Below the pieces are notes generated by a model. The model was not told where the DNA came from, did no database searches, and worked only from the letters and a program-made list of their open reading frames with translations. DNA of 64,000 nucleotides from Stenotrophomonas sp. BIGb0135 (GTDB lineage Bacteria; Pseudomonadota; Gammaproteobacteria; Xanthomonadales; Xanthomonadaceae), in the NCBI RefSeq assembly GCF_024810105.1, contig NZ_JANUDX010000002.1:62001-126000 (forward strand). Direction: 5' to 3'. The position numbers were made by a program, and so were the translations under genes. Positions 11,791 through 18,655 of this stretch are shown piece after piece. Numbering within the stretch: the stretch's first letter is position 1; the number at the start of each line of letters is the position of its first letter.

Positions 11791-12497
11791 GCGTCGTTCC
11801 GCAGCTGCCGCTCGCCCTGCGCTACCCGCAGGACGAGCGGCTCGAGACCTTCATCGGTGCACCCGACGGTGCGCTGGCGCAGCTGCGTGCGATCGCGGTG
11901 GGGGCCGCGCATGACTGGGTGTACCTGGAAGGCGCGGCCGGCACCGGCAAGACCCACCAGGCGCTGGCGATGTGTTCGCTGGCCGAGCAGGCCGGGCGGC
12001 AGCCGACCTACCTGCCGTTGAAGGCGGTGGTGGGGCGCACCCGCGCCGCACTGGAGTCGCTGGAGGGGCGTGATCTGGTCGCGCTGGACGGGTTGGATGC
12101 CGTCGCCGGGCAGCGCGAGGACGAAGTGGCGCTGTTCGATTTCCACAACCGCGCGCGTAGTGCCGGTATCACCCTGCTGTACACCGCGCAGCATGCACCG
12201 GACCAGCTGGGCCTGGTGCTGCCGGACCTGCGCTCGCGTCTGCAGCAGTGCGTGCGCCTGCACCTGCAGCCACTGGACGACGAAGGCCGCGCAGCCGTGC
12301 TGCGCGAGCGCGCGCTGCGCCGCGGGCTGGCGATCGACGAAGCGGCGATCGAATGGTTGCTCACCCGCACCGGCCGTGAACTGGGCAGCCTGGTGAGCCT
12401 GCTGGACTGGCTGGACCGCGAATCGATGGCCGCGCAGCGGCGCATTACCGTGCCGTTTCTGCGCCAGGTCCTGGAAGACGGCCCACACCGCCTGTAG
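11787..12497 (+). CDS. hda: Hda, DnaA regulatory inactivator
   Basis: A 236-aa AAA+ protein that, with the DNA-loaded sliding clamp, stimulates ATP hydrolysis by DnaA and so limits re-initiation. The clamp-binding motif QLPLAL is at residues 6-11 and Walker A (GAAGTGKTH) at about 49-57. A Walker B-like LVALDGLDAV follows. The start is GTG overlapping the upstream TGA. The stop codon TAG is the first part of a SMAG palindrome, and the last roughly 40 bp of the gene are repeated downstream. Confidence 0.92.
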   Translation: MSVVPQLPLALRYPQDERLETFIGAPDGALAQLRAIAVGAAHDWVYLEGAAGTGKTHQALAMCSLAEQAGRQPTYLPLKAVVGRTRAALESLEGRDLVALDGLDAVAGQREDEVALFDFHNRARSAGITLLYTAQHAPDQLGLVLPDLRSRLQQCVRLHLQPLDDEGRAAVLRERALRRGLAIDEAAIEWLLTRTGRELGSLVSLLDWLDRESMAAQRRITVPFLRQVLEDGPHRL

Positions 12498-13011
12498 AGC
12501 CGACCGTTGGTCGGCTGCTCTTCTGGCCTTTTCACGGCAGCCGACCAACGGTCGGCTCTACGAGCGCCGGTTGGTGGGCTGCTGTTCTGCGCCAGGTCCT
12601 GGAAGACGGCCCACACCGCCCGTAGAGCCGACCGTTGGTCGGCTGCTCTTCTGGCCTTTTCAAGGCAGCCGACCAACGGTCGGCTCTACGAGCGCTGGTT
12701 GGCCGGCTGCTGTTCTGCGCAGGTCCTGGAAGACAGCCCACACCGCCTGTAGAGCCGACCGTTGGTCGGCTGCTTTTCTAGCCTTTTCAGGGCAGCCGAC
12801 CAACGGTCGGCTCTACGAGCGCCGGTTGGTTGGCTGCTGTTCTGCGCCAGGTCCTGGAAGACGGCCCACACCGCCTGTAGAGCTGACCGTTGGTCGGCTG
12901 CCTTTCTGGCCTTTTCACGGCAGCCGACCAACGGTCGGCTCTACGAGCGCCGGTTGGTTGGCTGCTGTTTGCCTGGCCTTTTCACGGCAGCCGACCAACG
13001 GTCGGCTCTAC
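12457..13011. repeat. 127-128 bp tandem array: hda 3' end plus SMAG pair
   Basis: Each unit starts with the last 41 bp of hda (TTCTGCGCCAGGTCCTGG onward through TAG), then a SMAG pair, then a spacer resembling GAGCGCCGGTTGG. Units begin at 12457 (inside hda), 12585, 12713 and 12840. A fifth unit, from about 12967, has lost the hda segment. Each SMAG pair is a 25-bp inverted repeat around a loop of about 19 nt. The period is not a multiple of three and every copy carries TAG, so this is not a coding array. Confidence 0.93.
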
Positions 13012-15174: not shown

Positions 15175-16686
15175 TCAGCAGCAGCCGTGGCCGCCGTGGC
15201 GGGTGCCGCTGTCGGCGGCGACCGGCGAGCCGCTGGTCTCGCCACGCAGGCTGGCCGCGTAGTGCTCGCTGATCACCTTGGACACGCAGGCAGTGACTTT
15301 CTTGCCCATCGGGATGTGCAGGAATTCGTTCGGACCGTGCGCGTTGGAATGCGGGCCGAGCACGCCGGTGATCATGAACTGCGCGCCCGGGAACTTCTCG
15401 CCGAGCATGCCCATGAACGGGATCGAGCCGCCTTCGCCCATGTACATCGCCGGCTTGCCGAAGAAGGTCTGGCTGGCGTCGTCGATCGCCTGGGTCAGCC
15501 ACGGCGCCATCGCCGGCGCGTTCCAGCCGCTGGACGCCTTTTCCAGGTCCAGCTTCACTTCCGCGCCGTTGGGCGGATCGCGCAGCAGGGCTTCCTTGAG
15601 CAGCTCGCCGCAGGCCTTGCCATCGGCGGTCGGCGGCAGGCGCAGCGAAAGCTTCACTGCGGTATGCGGGCGCAGCACGTTGCCGGCCGAGGCCAGCGGC
15701 GGCATGCCGTCCACGCCGGTCACCGACAGCGCCGGGCGCCAGGTGCGGTTGAGCACCAGTTCGGCCAGGTCATCGTTCATCGGGCGCAGGCCGTCGACCA
15801 TCGGGAATTTCTCGAAGATGGCGGTGTCCACCACCTCGGCAGCACGCTTGGCCTGCTCCTGGCGCTCGGCCGGGATCTCCACGTGCATGCCATCGATCAG
15901 GATGCGGCCGGTGTTCTCGTCCTCGATCCGCGACAGCAACTGGCGCAGCAGGCGGAAGCTGGACGGGATCACGCCGGAGGCATCGCCGGAGTGCACGCCT
16001 TCGTTGAGCACCTTGACCGAGAAGTTGCCGCCGGTCAGGCCGCGCAGCGAGGTGGTGCACCACAGCTGGTCGTAGTTGGCGCAGCCCGAATCCAGGCACA
16101 CCACCAGCGACGGCTTGCCGATGCGGTCGGCCAGGTGGTCCACGTAGGCCGGCAGGTCGTAGCTGCCCGATTCTTCGCAGGCTTCGATCAGCACCACGCA
16201 GCGTGCATGCGGCAGGCCCTGTTCCTGCAGCGCCAGCACGGCGGCCAGCGAGCCGAACATGGCGTACCCATCATCGGCGCCGCCACGGCCGTACAGCTTG
16301 TCGCCGCGCAGCACCGGCAGCCACGGACCGAGATCGGCATCCCAGCCGGTCATTTCCGGCTGCTTGTCCAGGTGGCCGTAGAGCAGGATGGTGTCGTCGC
16401 CGGTCTCGGCGCCAGACGCCGGAATTTCCAGCAGCAGCAGCGGCGTGCGGCCTTCCAGGCGCACCACCTCCACGGTCAGGCCGGGCAGGTTCTGGGCCCG
16501 GGCCCAGGTTTCCATCAGGGTGACGGCCTGTTCCATGTAACCGTTGGCGACCCAATCTGCGTCGAACATCGGCGATTTGTTGGGAATGCGGATGTAATCG
16601 ACCAATTGCGGGACGATCTCGCTGTCCCACTTTTCATTGACGAATTGGCCGAGTTTGGCGCTGTCCATCTGAAACTCCGGATGCAT
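15175..16686 (-). CDS. M20-family metallopeptidase
   Basis: A 503-aa di-zinc peptidase of the M20 (dipeptidase/ArgE-DapE) family. Expected ligands are seen: H105 and D107 in LLYGHLDKQP, D138 in GRGGADDG, and the catalytic Glu pair in EACEESGS (about 171-172). A dimerisation lid occupies the middle. An alternative start is MDSAKLG at 16668. The protein ends in a His/Gly/Cys-rich tail (TRHGGHGCC) outside the M20 fold. No signal peptide, so it is likely a cytoplasmic dipeptidase. Confidence 0.88.
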   Translation of the reverse strand: MHPEFQMDSAKLGQFVNEKWDSEIVPQLVDYIRIPNKSPMFDADWVANGYMEQAVTLMETWARAQNLPGLTVEVVRLEGRTPLLLLEIPASGAETGDDTILLYGHLDKQPEMTGWDADLGPWLPVLRGDKLYGRGGADDGYAMFGSLAAVLALQEQGLPHARCVVLIEACEESGSYDLPAYVDHLADRIGKPSLVVCLDSGCANYDQLWCTTSLRGLTGGNFSVKVLNEGVHSGDASGVIPSSFRLLRQLLSRIEDENTGRILIDGMHVEIPAERQEQAKRAAEVVDTAIFEKFPMVDGLRPMNDDLAELVLNRTWRPALSVTGVDGMPPLASAGNVLRPHTAVKLSLRLPPTADGKACGELLKEALLRDPPNGAEVKLDLEKASSGWNAPAMAPWLTQAIDDASQTFFGKPAMYMGEGGSIPFMGMLGEKFPGAQFMITGVLGPHSNAHGPNEFLHIPMGKKVTACVSKVISEHYAASLRGETSGSPVAADSGTRHGGHGCC

Positions 16687-16720
16687 TGGCTAGTCCTCAC
16701 ATTCTACGCCGCTGGCAGGG

Positions 16721-16736
16721 GTAGGGATTTCCCTAC
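16721..16736. promoter_or_regulatory. 16-bp inverted repeat, possible response-regulator operator
   Basis: GTAGGGATTTCCCTAC is a perfect 7-2-7 inverted repeat between the divergent M20 peptidase and ComEA-like genes. The 7-2-7 layout is that of NarL/LuxR-type response-regulator sites. It lies about 130 bp before the ComEA-like start and upstream of the RNA candidate. The regulator is not identified. Confidence 0.45.
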
Positions 16737-16867
16737 ACCACGTCAGGTATTTGGCTGGCTGTGTGAAGGGGCTGTGGACGATAGGCTGTGTGTATGTGGC
16801 GAGGGATGCTGGGGCCTCCGACGGGATAGCCGGCAGGACCCGGTTCCGAGCCACAAGGAGTTGCAAG

Positions 16868-17197
16868 GTGGGGTCTTGGTTTTCGTGGAAGGCGCTTGCG
16901 CTGGGACTGCTGTTGATCGGGGCTGCTCAGGCGGCCAACCGCATCGACATCAATACGGCTGATGCGTCGACGCTGCAGCAGGGATTGACGAACGTGGGGC
17001 CGCACAAGGCTGAAGCGATCGTTGCGTACCGGCGACAACACGGACCTTTCCTCCGGGTCGAGGACCTGGCACGGGTGAAGGGGATAGGGACGAGAACGGT
17101 CGAACGGAATCGACAACGGATGACGACGGGGGTCATGGAGAGCCCCGCCGCGGAACCGCCCAGGAGGGCGTTGCCGGCAGCCGTACCAAGACGCTGA
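16868..17197 (+). CDS. ComEA-like helix-hairpin-helix protein
   Basis: A 109-aa exported protein: signal peptide (about 1-22, GLLLIGAAQA), then a double helix-hairpin-helix domain (about 24-87) with IDINTADASTLQQGL and RVKGIGTRTVERNRQRM. Such proteins bind double-stranded DNA in the periplasm during transformation. The start is GTG at 16868, preceded by AAGGAG at 16855-16860; the longer open frame has no sensible N-terminus. The C-terminal 25 residues are low-complexity Pro/Arg/Ala. The DNA encoding them already forms GGA-loop hairpins, so this end may be shaped by an overlapping RNA. Confidence 0.82.
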   Translation: MGSWFSWKALALGLLLIGAAQAANRIDINTADASTLQQGLTNVGPHKAEAIVAYRRQHGPFLRVEDLARVKGIGTRTVERNRQRMTTGVMESPAAEPPRRALPAAVPRR

Positions 17198-17504
17198 CCA
17201 ACAGGACAGGTCGGAGACAGGCAGGAGCCCGTCATCGCCGGTCGCGCAGGATGCGCGGCGGCACCGGCACACGCAGGGAGGCGGTACGCAGGGATGCGGC
17301 GCGGAAGGATCGGCGCGGAACCACCAGGACGGTGGCGCCCAGGCTCGGGAAGGGCTGTCATGGCGGAGCGATATTCGGCCGAGTGCAGGGAGCATGGCCG
17401 GCACCCAAACTGGGCAGGATGCACAGGGGGAAGGCGGGAAGCCGACAAGGATGTGATGATTGCCCGGTACTGCGCAGGGATGCGTGGCCGGGCAATTTCT
17501 TTAT
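17126..17504 (+). ncRNA. Candidate CsrB/RsmB-type RsmA-sequestering small RNA
   Basis: About 20 GGA motifs fall in 17150-17485, many at hairpin tips. Stem/loop examples: CGCCC-AGGA-GGGCG (17157-17170); GGC-AGGA-GCC within GAC/GTC (17216-17233); CGCGCA-GGA-TGCGCG (17243-17257); CGCA-GGGA-TGCG (17287-17298); CCACC-AGGAC-GGTGG (17321-17335); TGC-AGGGA-GCA closed by GGCC/GGCC (17377-17399); and CGCA-GGGA-TGCG inside the terminal hairpin (17473-17484). A U-rich tail follows. No open frame here resembles a protein. This is the architecture of RNAs that titrate CsrA/RsmA. The 5' end is unknown and may lie inside the ComEA-like gene. Confidence 0.6.
17459..17504 (+). terminator. Terminal hairpin with T-rich tail
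   Basis: ATTGCCCGG (17459-17467) pairs perfectly with CCGGGCAAT (17488-17496); an inner CGCA-GGGA-TGCG hairpin fills the loop. It is followed by TTCTTTAT. It would end the candidate small RNA and shield the L,D-transpeptidase gene from read-through. Confidence 0.6.
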
Positions 17505-17536
17505 GGGCGTCTGCCTGCGCGCGCCAACACCTGTTT

Positions 17537-17576
17537 CATGCAGTGCGTTGGTGTAGCGTCGTCGCATTACTGCATG
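17537..17576 (+). promoter_or_regulatory. Inverted repeat in the L,D-transpeptidase leader
   Basis: CATGCAGT (17537-17544) and ACTGCATG (17569-17576) are perfect 8-bp arms ending 2 bp before the first possible ATG. The structure could act as an operator or as a leader hairpin that hides the start region. Inference only. Confidence 0.3.
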
Positions 17577-17578
17577 GA

Positions 17579-18655
17579 ATGAACCACATGGCACCACGCC
17601 GCGCATTGCTCACCCTGGCCCTGGCCACCTTGTTCGCCACCGGCGCCTGCGCTGCGACGGCCGCGACCCCGCCCGCCAGCAGTGCCACCGATACGGCCGT
17701 TGCCGCGCCGCGCGGTCCCACCGATCTCAAGCCCGGTGAATTCCTGTGGCATCCGGAAATCTCGCCGGCTGGCCCGATCGTGCTGGTGGTCAGCCTGGAT
17801 GAGCAGCGCGCCTATGTGTATCGCAACGGCATCGCCATCGGCCTGAGCACGATCAGCTCGGGCAAGACCGGCCACGAAACCCCGACCGGCGTGTTCACCA
17901 TTCTGCAGAAGGACAAGGACCACAAGTCCAACCTCTACAACAGCGCGCCGATGCCCTACATGCAGCGGCTTACCTGGGACGGCATCGCCCTGCACGGGGG
18001 CAATCTGCCGGGGCACCCGGCCTCGCACGGGTGCGTGCGGCTGCCGCAGGCGTTCGCGCAGAAGCTGTTCAGTGCGACCCAGCGCGGCGACACGGTGGTG
18101 GTGGCCGATGCCAAGAGCGCGCCGATGACGCTGGCCTATCCGGCGGTACTGGCGCCGGTCAACAGCACCGGCAAGCCGCTGCTGGAGACCACCGATGCGC
18201 CCGACCACTACTGGAACGACGCGGCTGCGCCGAGCGGGCAGGTCGGCATCCTGGTGAGCCTGCACGACCAGCGCCTGTACGTGCTGCGCGACGGCGTGCT
18301 GATCGGTGAATCGCGGCTGCAGGCCAAGGCATTGCCGGCCTTCGAAGGCACCACGCTGTTCGTGATGCAGCAGGGCTATTCGGACGTGCCCAGCCCGCTG
18401 GACGCGCACCAGCGCCTGCACAAGTGGACCGCCTATCCGCTGCTGGGGCAGAGCGCGGGCAACGCCAGTCCCGACCTGCTGGCCACCCCCAGCCTGCCGA
18501 TGGCGCTGCCGCCGGCCTTTGCCGAGCAGCTGTACCAGGCGCTGGTGCCGGGTACCACGTTGCTGGTGACGAGCCTGCCGGCGGTTCGCCCGGTGGCCGA
18601 TGAACAGAACCTGCAACCGGTGTTGGAATCGGACGCCGGCGGGTCCACCTTGTAG
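17579..18655 (+). CDS. L,D-transpeptidase (YkuD) family protein
   Basis: A 358-aa exported protein with a signal peptide (MAPRRALLTLALATLFATGA) and a YkuD domain (about 65-175). The catalytic motif HGGNLPGHPASHGCVRLP includes H139, H150 and nucleophile C152. The C-terminal half repeats a YkuD-like beginning (VGILVSLHDQRLYVLRDGVLIG) but lacks the SHGC motif, so only the first domain can be active. It probably makes 3-3 crosslinks or anchors proteins to peptidoglycan. ATG 17588 is an alternative start. Stop is TAG. Confidence 0.85.
   Translation: MNHMAPRRALLTLALATLFATGACAATAATPPASSATDTAVAAPRGPTDLKPGEFLWHPEISPAGPIVLVVSLDEQRAYVYRNGIAIGLSTISSGKTGHETPTGVFTILQKDKDHKSNLYNSAPMPYMQRLTWDGIALHGGNLPGHPASHGCVRLPQAFAQKLFSATQRGDTVVVADAKSAPMTLAYPAVLAPVNSTGKPLLETTDAPDHYWNDAAAPSGQVGILVSLHDQRLYVLRDGVLIGESRLQAKALPAFEGTTLFVMQQGYSDVPSPLDAHQRLHKWTAYPLLGQSAGNASPDLLATPSLPMALPPAFAEQLYQALVPGTTLLVTSLPAVRPVADEQNLQPVLESDAGGSTL

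Follow-up and report, generated by a model that had tools for sequence, protein, structure and literature searches.

A GGA-hairpin array in the comEA 3' untranslated region of Stenotrophomonas: a predicted long form of the Xanthomonas RNA RsmU

In Pseudomonas, the RNAs RsmX, RsmY, RsmZ, RsmV and RsmW titrate RsmA by means of GGA motifs. These are the Pseudomonas Rsm RNAs named in passages of Tang et al. 2020 (PMC7694677), which describe how, in Xanthomonas campestris pv. campestris (Xcc), the comEA 3' UTR gives rise to RsmU (sRX061), an RNA that binds RsmA/CsrA. RsmU begins 25 bp past the comEA stop codon, is processed out of the comEA mRNA, and comes in two lengths, 77 nt and, with a 40-nt terminator included, 117 nt (PMC7694677). 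The same passages report it from all Xanthomonas, with an identity of >90% within the genus, and from no other bacteria. Xanthomonas carries csrA, but neither CsrB/CsrC nor RsmX/Y/Z has been recognised in it (passages of PMC7286519 and PMC7694677), and a passage of PMC7831014 gives the regulators acting upstream of RsmA and of RsmU there as unknown. Over-expression of RsmU in trans mimics part of the rsmA mutant phenotype, and Xcc strains without RsmU show normal swarming, virulence and hypersensitive response. RsmU altered at four predicted GGA motifs forms a smaller RsmA complex, with binding and function both persisting (PMC7694677). Given that strains without RsmU are normal and that the four-GGA mutant still binds and functions, titration by RsmU at its natural abundance is a hypothesis even in Xcc.

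The window considered here is the whole 64,000-nucleotide stretch of Stenotrophomonas sp. BIGb0135 DNA that was analysed, and all coordinates refer to it. An earlier note, made from the letters alone, had proposed a CsrB/RsmB-like RNA at 17126-17504; the array of GGA hairpins it described is real, but the first 72 nt (17126-17197) are the coding 3' end of a comEA-like gene on the forward strand (16868-17197, stop codon 17195-17197). This gene, probably the host transcript of the RNA, encodes a 109-aa helix-hairpin-helix protein (PF12836 HHH_3, 69.1 bits) whose N-terminus reads as a signal peptide, and is followed on the same strand by a 306-nt 3' UTR (17198-17503) that holds the RsmU-type array, with 18 GGA and an intrinsic terminator at its end. 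Pfam places a divergent M20 peptidase gene upstream, and two L,D-transpeptidase genes and then hutD downstream; the same neighbours are read in X. cannabis, with the M20 peptidase gene divergent upstream and hutD further downstream. A promoter scan of 16650-17650 returned no sigma-70-like site, a result that neither supports nor excludes a promoter of the RNA's own. Elsewhere in the window, at 12457-12969, a 128-bp unit repeated four times in tandem (94% matches) is rich in GTAGAGCCGACC/GGTCGGCTCTAC palindromes and generates open frames without likely meaning.

The count of about 20 GGA given in the note is borne out, with 21 lying within 17126-17504 (379 nt), above the maximum of 20 among 1000 dinucleotide shuffles (mean 12.5, sd 2.4), and the 3' UTR itself holds 18 GGA against 0 TCC. 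At least seven GGA had been said to sit at the tips of short perfect stems; eight are found in loops closed by a perfect stem of 4 bp or more (2.3 ± 1.5 in shuffles, with 1/1000 reaching 8) and five where that stem has 5 bp or more (0.7 ± 0.9 in shuffles, with 0/1000 as many), confirming the excess over shuffled sequence that the note had proposed as a check. When 6364 segments of 379 nt, taken from either strand of the 64 kb, are ranked, the top ten by GGA hairpins (stem of at least 5 bp; the best beginning at 17061) all overlap 17126-17504, as do the top ten by GGA number. Folding, also proposed in the note, gives a divided answer: the GGA hairpins exceed the shuffles, whilst the global fold is only mildly more stable than theirs (z -2.0; 4/100 shuffles equally stable). 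The signal is thus one of local hairpins, GGA density and conservation, not of the global fold.

Along the forward strand, the first hairpin (helix 1, GAC-A-GGC-AGGA-GCC-C-GTC, 17216-17233) has a stem that changes on both sides among relatives, as do the outer pairs of the 8-bp stem of helix 2 (gtcgcgca-GGA-tgcgcggc, 17241-17259). Helix 3 (CGCAGGGAGGCG, 17272-17283) and helix 4 (ccacc-AGGAC-ggtgg, 17321-17335) each carry a GGA that is exact in 27/27 Stenotrophomonas sequences, and both hairpins quoted in the note (17243-17257 and 17321-17335) are present to the letter. A short stem-loop (GGC-GGGAA-GCC, 17433-17443) stands directly 5' of the core, where a stem of at least 4 bp is found in 51/70 selected family cores (mean 16.5 and maximum 26 in 200 mononucleotide shuffles of the 5' part only). 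The family-wide core itself (GACAAGGATGT, 17444-17454) fits the CsrA SELEX consensus RUACARGGAUGU, in which ACA and GGA occur in all ligands and GU in all but one (passages of PMC7652899); the core motif ACANGGANGT contains the letters that are invariant in this consensus. The array closes with the intrinsic terminator (helix 5, 17459-17503), whose 9-bp stem and T-rich tail the note had rightly recognised (17459-17467 with 17488-17496, then TTCTTTA), and which bears a GGA stem-loop at its apex (GGA at 17478); a simple terminator scan, which admits loops of 3-8 nt only, reported none.

Within the genus, a blastn search with the stretch matched 28/61 genomes, all of them Stenotrophomonas, in a sample of which 37 belong to this genus and the other genera of the family are absent. 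The window and its eight close relatives (77-88% identical) carry 17-19 GGA each, with 1-4 TCC in each of the eight relatives. Outside the terminator, GGA triplets are kept exactly in 0.82 of rows compared with 0.55 for other triplets (9 rows; permutation 0.005), and in 0.49 compared with 0.33 when 27 rows are used (permutation 0.04). Four of the 18 GGA are exact in all 27 Stenotrophomonas sequences and nine lie within 4 columns in all 27, a lenient count by which two others are found in 21 and 24 of the 27 and the remaining seven in 8-12, mostly of the close clade. The compensatory changes that the note had suggested looking for are found, with stems covarying, in these 27 sequences and in 70 selected family cores. 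In the 27, 99.1% of cells in the five GGA/terminator hairpins are paired and 14/34 pairs change both sides, with a covariation score of 0.282 compared with 0.125 for 3'-letter shuffles and 0.017-0.052 for slid controls, over which the structure is favoured by having been derived from the same alignment. In the 70 family cores, 13/16 pairs change both sides (covariation 0.371 compared with 0.160 shuffled), for a structure named by hand because RNAalifold gave only a partial one. These 70 rows were obtained from 101 by dropping 7 doubtful rows, 20/29 Stenotrophomonas rows and exact duplicates, and were picked by CA-(0-2)-GGA-N-GT and a stem of at least 7 bp, a choice that by itself fixes those letters and much of the pairing in the outer stem.

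Comparison with RsmU is possible through five named Xanthomonas loci (X. cannabis L171, X. hortorum L190, X. arboricola L224, X. phaseoli L186 and X. euvesicatoria L189), in which the bases after the comEA stop split exactly into 25 + 77 + 40 nt, with the terminator occupying the final 40. Since the published geometry is reproduced, we take these loci to be RsmU, none of them being X. campestris itself. The 117-nt RNA of each holds 8 GGA, double the number mutated in Xcc; should X. campestris resemble them, the mutated RsmU would keep four GGA, which may explain the persisting RsmA binding. The 117-nt X. cannabis RNA aligns through its nt 8-110 to window positions 17389-17493 (forward strand). 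Of the 107 columns, 83 are identities, 18 mismatches and 6 gaps, an identity of 78% over the aligned part, with a semi-global alignment giving 91 identities/117 nt. From this direct alignment, the window RNA reads as RsmU preceded by about 190 nt of additional GGA hairpins; the published Xanthomonas start would correspond to 17223 in the window. Like RsmU, it lies in the comEA 3' UTR on the same strand (comEA 16868-17197, array 17198-17503), and it is homologous to the Xanthomonas loci of published coordinates, with core and terminator aligned in 70 family sequences. Its 78% identity over the aligned part lies below the >90% reported within Xanthomonas, and in place of a 117-nt RNA beginning 25 nt past the stop, as found in the five Xanthomonas loci, it has a UTR of 306 nt, for which reason we file it as a long variant or counterpart of RsmU and not as the same RNA.

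The note knew of no described member of this RNA type at this locus, a statement overtaken by RsmU, whose origin is the comEA 3' UTR (PMC7694677, in part). Its reading as a CsrB/RsmB-like RNA was right in kind, the array of GGA hairpins being conserved and covarying, but does not extend to the CsrB family by sequence: the Rfam search that it had proposed finds nothing at gathering score in the window and no usable match at E up to 10, with RF00018 at 8.6 bits (E 5.7) against a cut-off of 71. Our search of the literature found in print no RsmU outside Xanthomonas (passages of PMC12189769 and PMC7831014 included), no CsrB-type RNA in Stenotrophomonas (passages of PMC7286519 included), and no Stenotrophomonas small-RNA work showing a transcript at the comEA 3' UTR.

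RsmU, previously called limited to Xanthomonas, occurs across much of the family. Relatives of ComEA were found in 144/149 family genomes, of which 131 were read (13 being unfetched or at a contig end) together with 23 further Stenotrophomonas genomes, L017 being left out of these 154 as its comEA was missed by the search expression. The core ACANGGANGU (= ACANGGANGT) lies within 330 nt past the comEA stop in 104/154 genomes, from 33/47 genera read, a count independent of the 70-row selection, compared with 0 on the reverse strand, 0 genomes at 331-600 nt, and 0.7 genomes on average in shuffles. Against a strict family-wide rule speak the 50/154 genomes in which the exact core is absent after comEA and the 14/47 genera without it in any genome read. 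GGA outnumbers TCC in the first 300 nt past comEA by 1408 to 635, and is ahead in 122/147 loci, with TCC ahead in 21. A covariance model built from the 70 cores matches 93/149 family genomes and 38/54 genera at E up to 0.01, and 77 of the 93 at E up to 1e-5; among the 16 weaker matches at least three (G090, G092, G095) lie on a contig other than that of comEA. Five genomes outside the training loci (G067, G089, G109, G150, G173) have a model match just after comEA, as judged by coordinates. The window's genome has one confident place, at 71.1 bits (a training member), the next scoring 23.9 bits. Two (L254, L255) of the seven further matches there (23.9 bits or less) were read as candidates for a second copy and rejected, as they look protein-coding.

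Beyond the family, the model matches 31/200 genomes in a sample of the order, 2 of them outside the family and weak, and 8/274 in a sample of the class, 5 of them outside. No comEA-type context is visible in the outside matches that were read (L289 and L297-L301, with G039 left out). Four of these (L289, L297, L298, L300) look like a dispersed palindromic element with GGA loops (CCGAGCATCGCA...GCGCAGGGA), carried by genomes elsewhere in the class and order, with five matches in G474, and scored weakly by the model. A pattern of exact core plus terminator, run against 84,980 species genomes, matched 92 stretches, of which 80 were listed, with 81 matches. Five of the matches listed fall in unrelated records (Streptomyces twice, Kibdelosporangium and two MAGs) where comEA was not found, and are probably due to chance. 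For the other 76 matches listed, comEA lies just upstream in 71 by script and in 4 by inspection, and in the remaining one the contig begins 40 nt before the motif. The records of these 76 are Xanthomonas, Stenotrophomonas or Pseudoxanthomonas, plus a few oddly named (one '[Pseudomonas] hibiscicola', two given only as Lysobacterales/Lysobacteraceae, and one contig labelled Bacillus subtilis). The last of these (L175, filed as Bacillus subtilis SK7B5) has a Stenotrophomonas-like comEA-RsmU locus and probably comes from a contaminated or mislabelled assembly.

Counted from the comEA stop up to 12 nt beyond the stem of the terminator, and among the matches listed, the locus spans 147 nt with 10 GGA in most Xanthomonas and 144-190 nt with 7-11 GGA in the others, 273-276 nt with 12-14 GGA in the S. 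maltophilia type, 304-310 nt with 17-21 GGA in the window type, 144 nt with 8 GGA in two short Stenotrophomonas, and 204-278 nt with 6-15 GGA in Pseudoxanthomonas. Two RsmU cores in series follow comEA in Pseudoxanthomonas spadix (L183, 268 nt apart) and in two genomes of genus g36 (L051 and L052), which suggests growth by duplication.

In one genus, the RNA is found apart from comEA. In two genomes rated 100% complete (G105, G163), ComEA has no match and HHH_3 none at E up to 0.001. The covariance model, for which both lie outside the training set, nevertheless finds the RNA in them (47.0 and 41.0 bits), in an intergenic space flanked by the M20 peptidase gene and hutD; this space holds 10 GGA, a terminator-like hairpin and the exact core ACANGGANGT. 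In a third genome of the genus (G137), the usual order of comEA followed by the RNA is seen. On the basis of G105 and G163, two genomes of one genus, the RNA has persisted in this lineage beyond the loss of its host gene, an argument for selection on the RNA itself; the free RNA would need another promoter.

A protein for such an RNA to bind is encoded in the same genome, with csrA found in 39/41 genomes and one canonical copy in the window's genome, whose product has, by our own count, the Leu4 and Arg44 highlighted in passages of PMC7652899. Both features by which we recognise the CsrA-titrating class, a csrA in the genome and many conserved GGA in hairpin loops, are thus found. Contig C4 of G000 additionally carries, at 132095-132208 and 173919-174032 (L294, L295), two identical copies of a sequence for a 63-aa divergent CsrA-like protein (32.7 bits, above the Pfam cut-off; by reading, without the HRxEIY end), inside an exact duplication of at least 3 kb that is possibly a mobile element, raising the question of a rival or decoy for CsrA.

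The 5' leader of comEA (16829-16860, forward strand), with GCCGGCAGGA at 16829 and GCCACAAGGAG at 16850, is a possible second CsrA target in the same mRNA, and CsrA may act on comEA in cis as well; the EMSA of Tang et al. used the whole mRNA and so does not tell its two ends apart (PMC7694677). At 16850-16860, CACAAGGAG lies over the comEA Shine-Dalgarno as a CsrA-type site that is also seen in Xanthomonas and other genera; by eye, CACARGGAG is present in 16/16 leaders long enough to judge (19 asked), a conservation of the Shine-Dalgarno that is expected for translation alone. The GGA of the site at 16829 is shared by L008 and the Xanthomonas leaders, and is absent from L002, L003, L004 and L006.

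We consider it highly probable, from sequence and homology, that the window RNA is a long, CsrB-sized RsmU variant that titrates CsrA. The RNA would be transcribed, probably together with comEA, would end at the terminator (17459-17503), and may be cut free from the comEA mRNA as in Xanthomonas. Several CsrA dimers would then be bound through GGA in hairpin loops, lowering free CsrA in the manner of a CsrB/RsmZ sponge, with comEA transcription setting the supply of RNA; sequestration of CsrA would be the simplest mechanism. Transcript, processing and RsmA binding are shown for Xanthomonas only (passages of PMC7694677), and for Stenotrophomonas we infer CsrA binding, processing and titration, as well as the existence of the RNA as a separate sRNA.

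The same hairpins could act in cis, with CsrA on the 3' UTR protecting comEA mRNA from decay, the leader perhaps controlling translation, and no titration in trans. In Xcc, an rsmA mutant has a less stable comEA mRNA and undetectable RsmU, and deletion of the 3' UTR slightly lowers comEA mRNA (all from passages of PMC7694677); the conserved CACARGGAG of the leader points the same way. However, the RNA is kept in the two complete-rated genomes without comEA, RsmU supplied in trans reproduces part of the rsmA mutant phenotype, and about 18 sites would far exceed what a protector needs, so that we regard a purely cis-acting element as unlikely.

Far less probable again is that base composition, or a short conserved coding sequence, accounts for the wealth of GGA, as might be proposed for a GC-rich region (67.6% over 17100-17510) in which many frames are open in many relatives and 6/9 close UTR lengths are multiples of three. 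Dinucleotide shuffles fall short of the GGA count, GGA abounds where TCC does not in the window UTR and its eight relatives, and stems show compensatory double changes; furthermore, none of the six frames (taken from the UTR ends) is stop-free in all nine rows and 3/9 lengths are not multiples of three, and on these grounds the coding explanation was rejected. We give as little credence to a mere comEA terminator region with dispersed palindromic repeats, for which the palindromic GGA-bearing elements in other genomes of the class (the five matches in G474) are a precedent, since the window's genome has one confident place, the next match reading as protein-coding, and this place is conserved across genera.

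We put at an even chance a wider reading, in which RsmU is a CsrB analogue that arose separately and was the CsrA sponge already in the ancestor of the whole family. It would reside in the 3' UTR of a competence gene, its GGA number would range between lineages from about 6 up to about 20, and it would have become a free-standing sRNA gene where comEA was lost. The comEA mRNA would here be both target and sponge, because its leader also has a CsrA-type site over the Shine-Dalgarno, and if true this would tie DNA uptake to the Csr switch. An RNA of this kind across much of the family, long in Stenotrophomonas and free-standing in one genus, makes CsrA tuning there directly testable. For RsmU itself, the 8 GGA per 117 nt are a likely reason why the four-GGA mutant still bound RsmA, with the reservation that X. 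campestris is not among the loci counted.

Set beside known systems, the window RNA differs from RsmX/Y/Z/V/W of Pseudomonas in locus and sequence, and belongs to no Rfam family at gathering score. GGA-rich, RsmA-binding sRNAs derived from 3' UTRs have been put forward, as predictions only, for Vibrio fischeri in the available part of PMC5568370, the main text of which names neither Xanthomonas, Stenotrophomonas nor comEA; they concern another organism and other genes. With CsrB/RsmB (RF00018) the window RNA shares its scale, many GGA hairpins and a terminal stem, the CsrB of E. coli having 22 GGA (passages of PMC7652899), but it scores 8.6 bits where 71 are asked and is embedded in the mRNA of a protein gene. 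The closest likeness is to RsmU, with which it has in common the comEA 3' UTR, homology over the last 105 nt (X. cannabis compared), GGA hairpins, the core, a GCCCGG/CCGGGC terminator and the upstream neighbour. In contrast to the roughly 147 nt and 10 GGA after the stop in most named Xanthomonas loci, the window has 306 nt and 18 GGA, the difference lying in the extra 5' hairpins of about 190 nt, and two L,D-transpeptidase genes stand before hutD.
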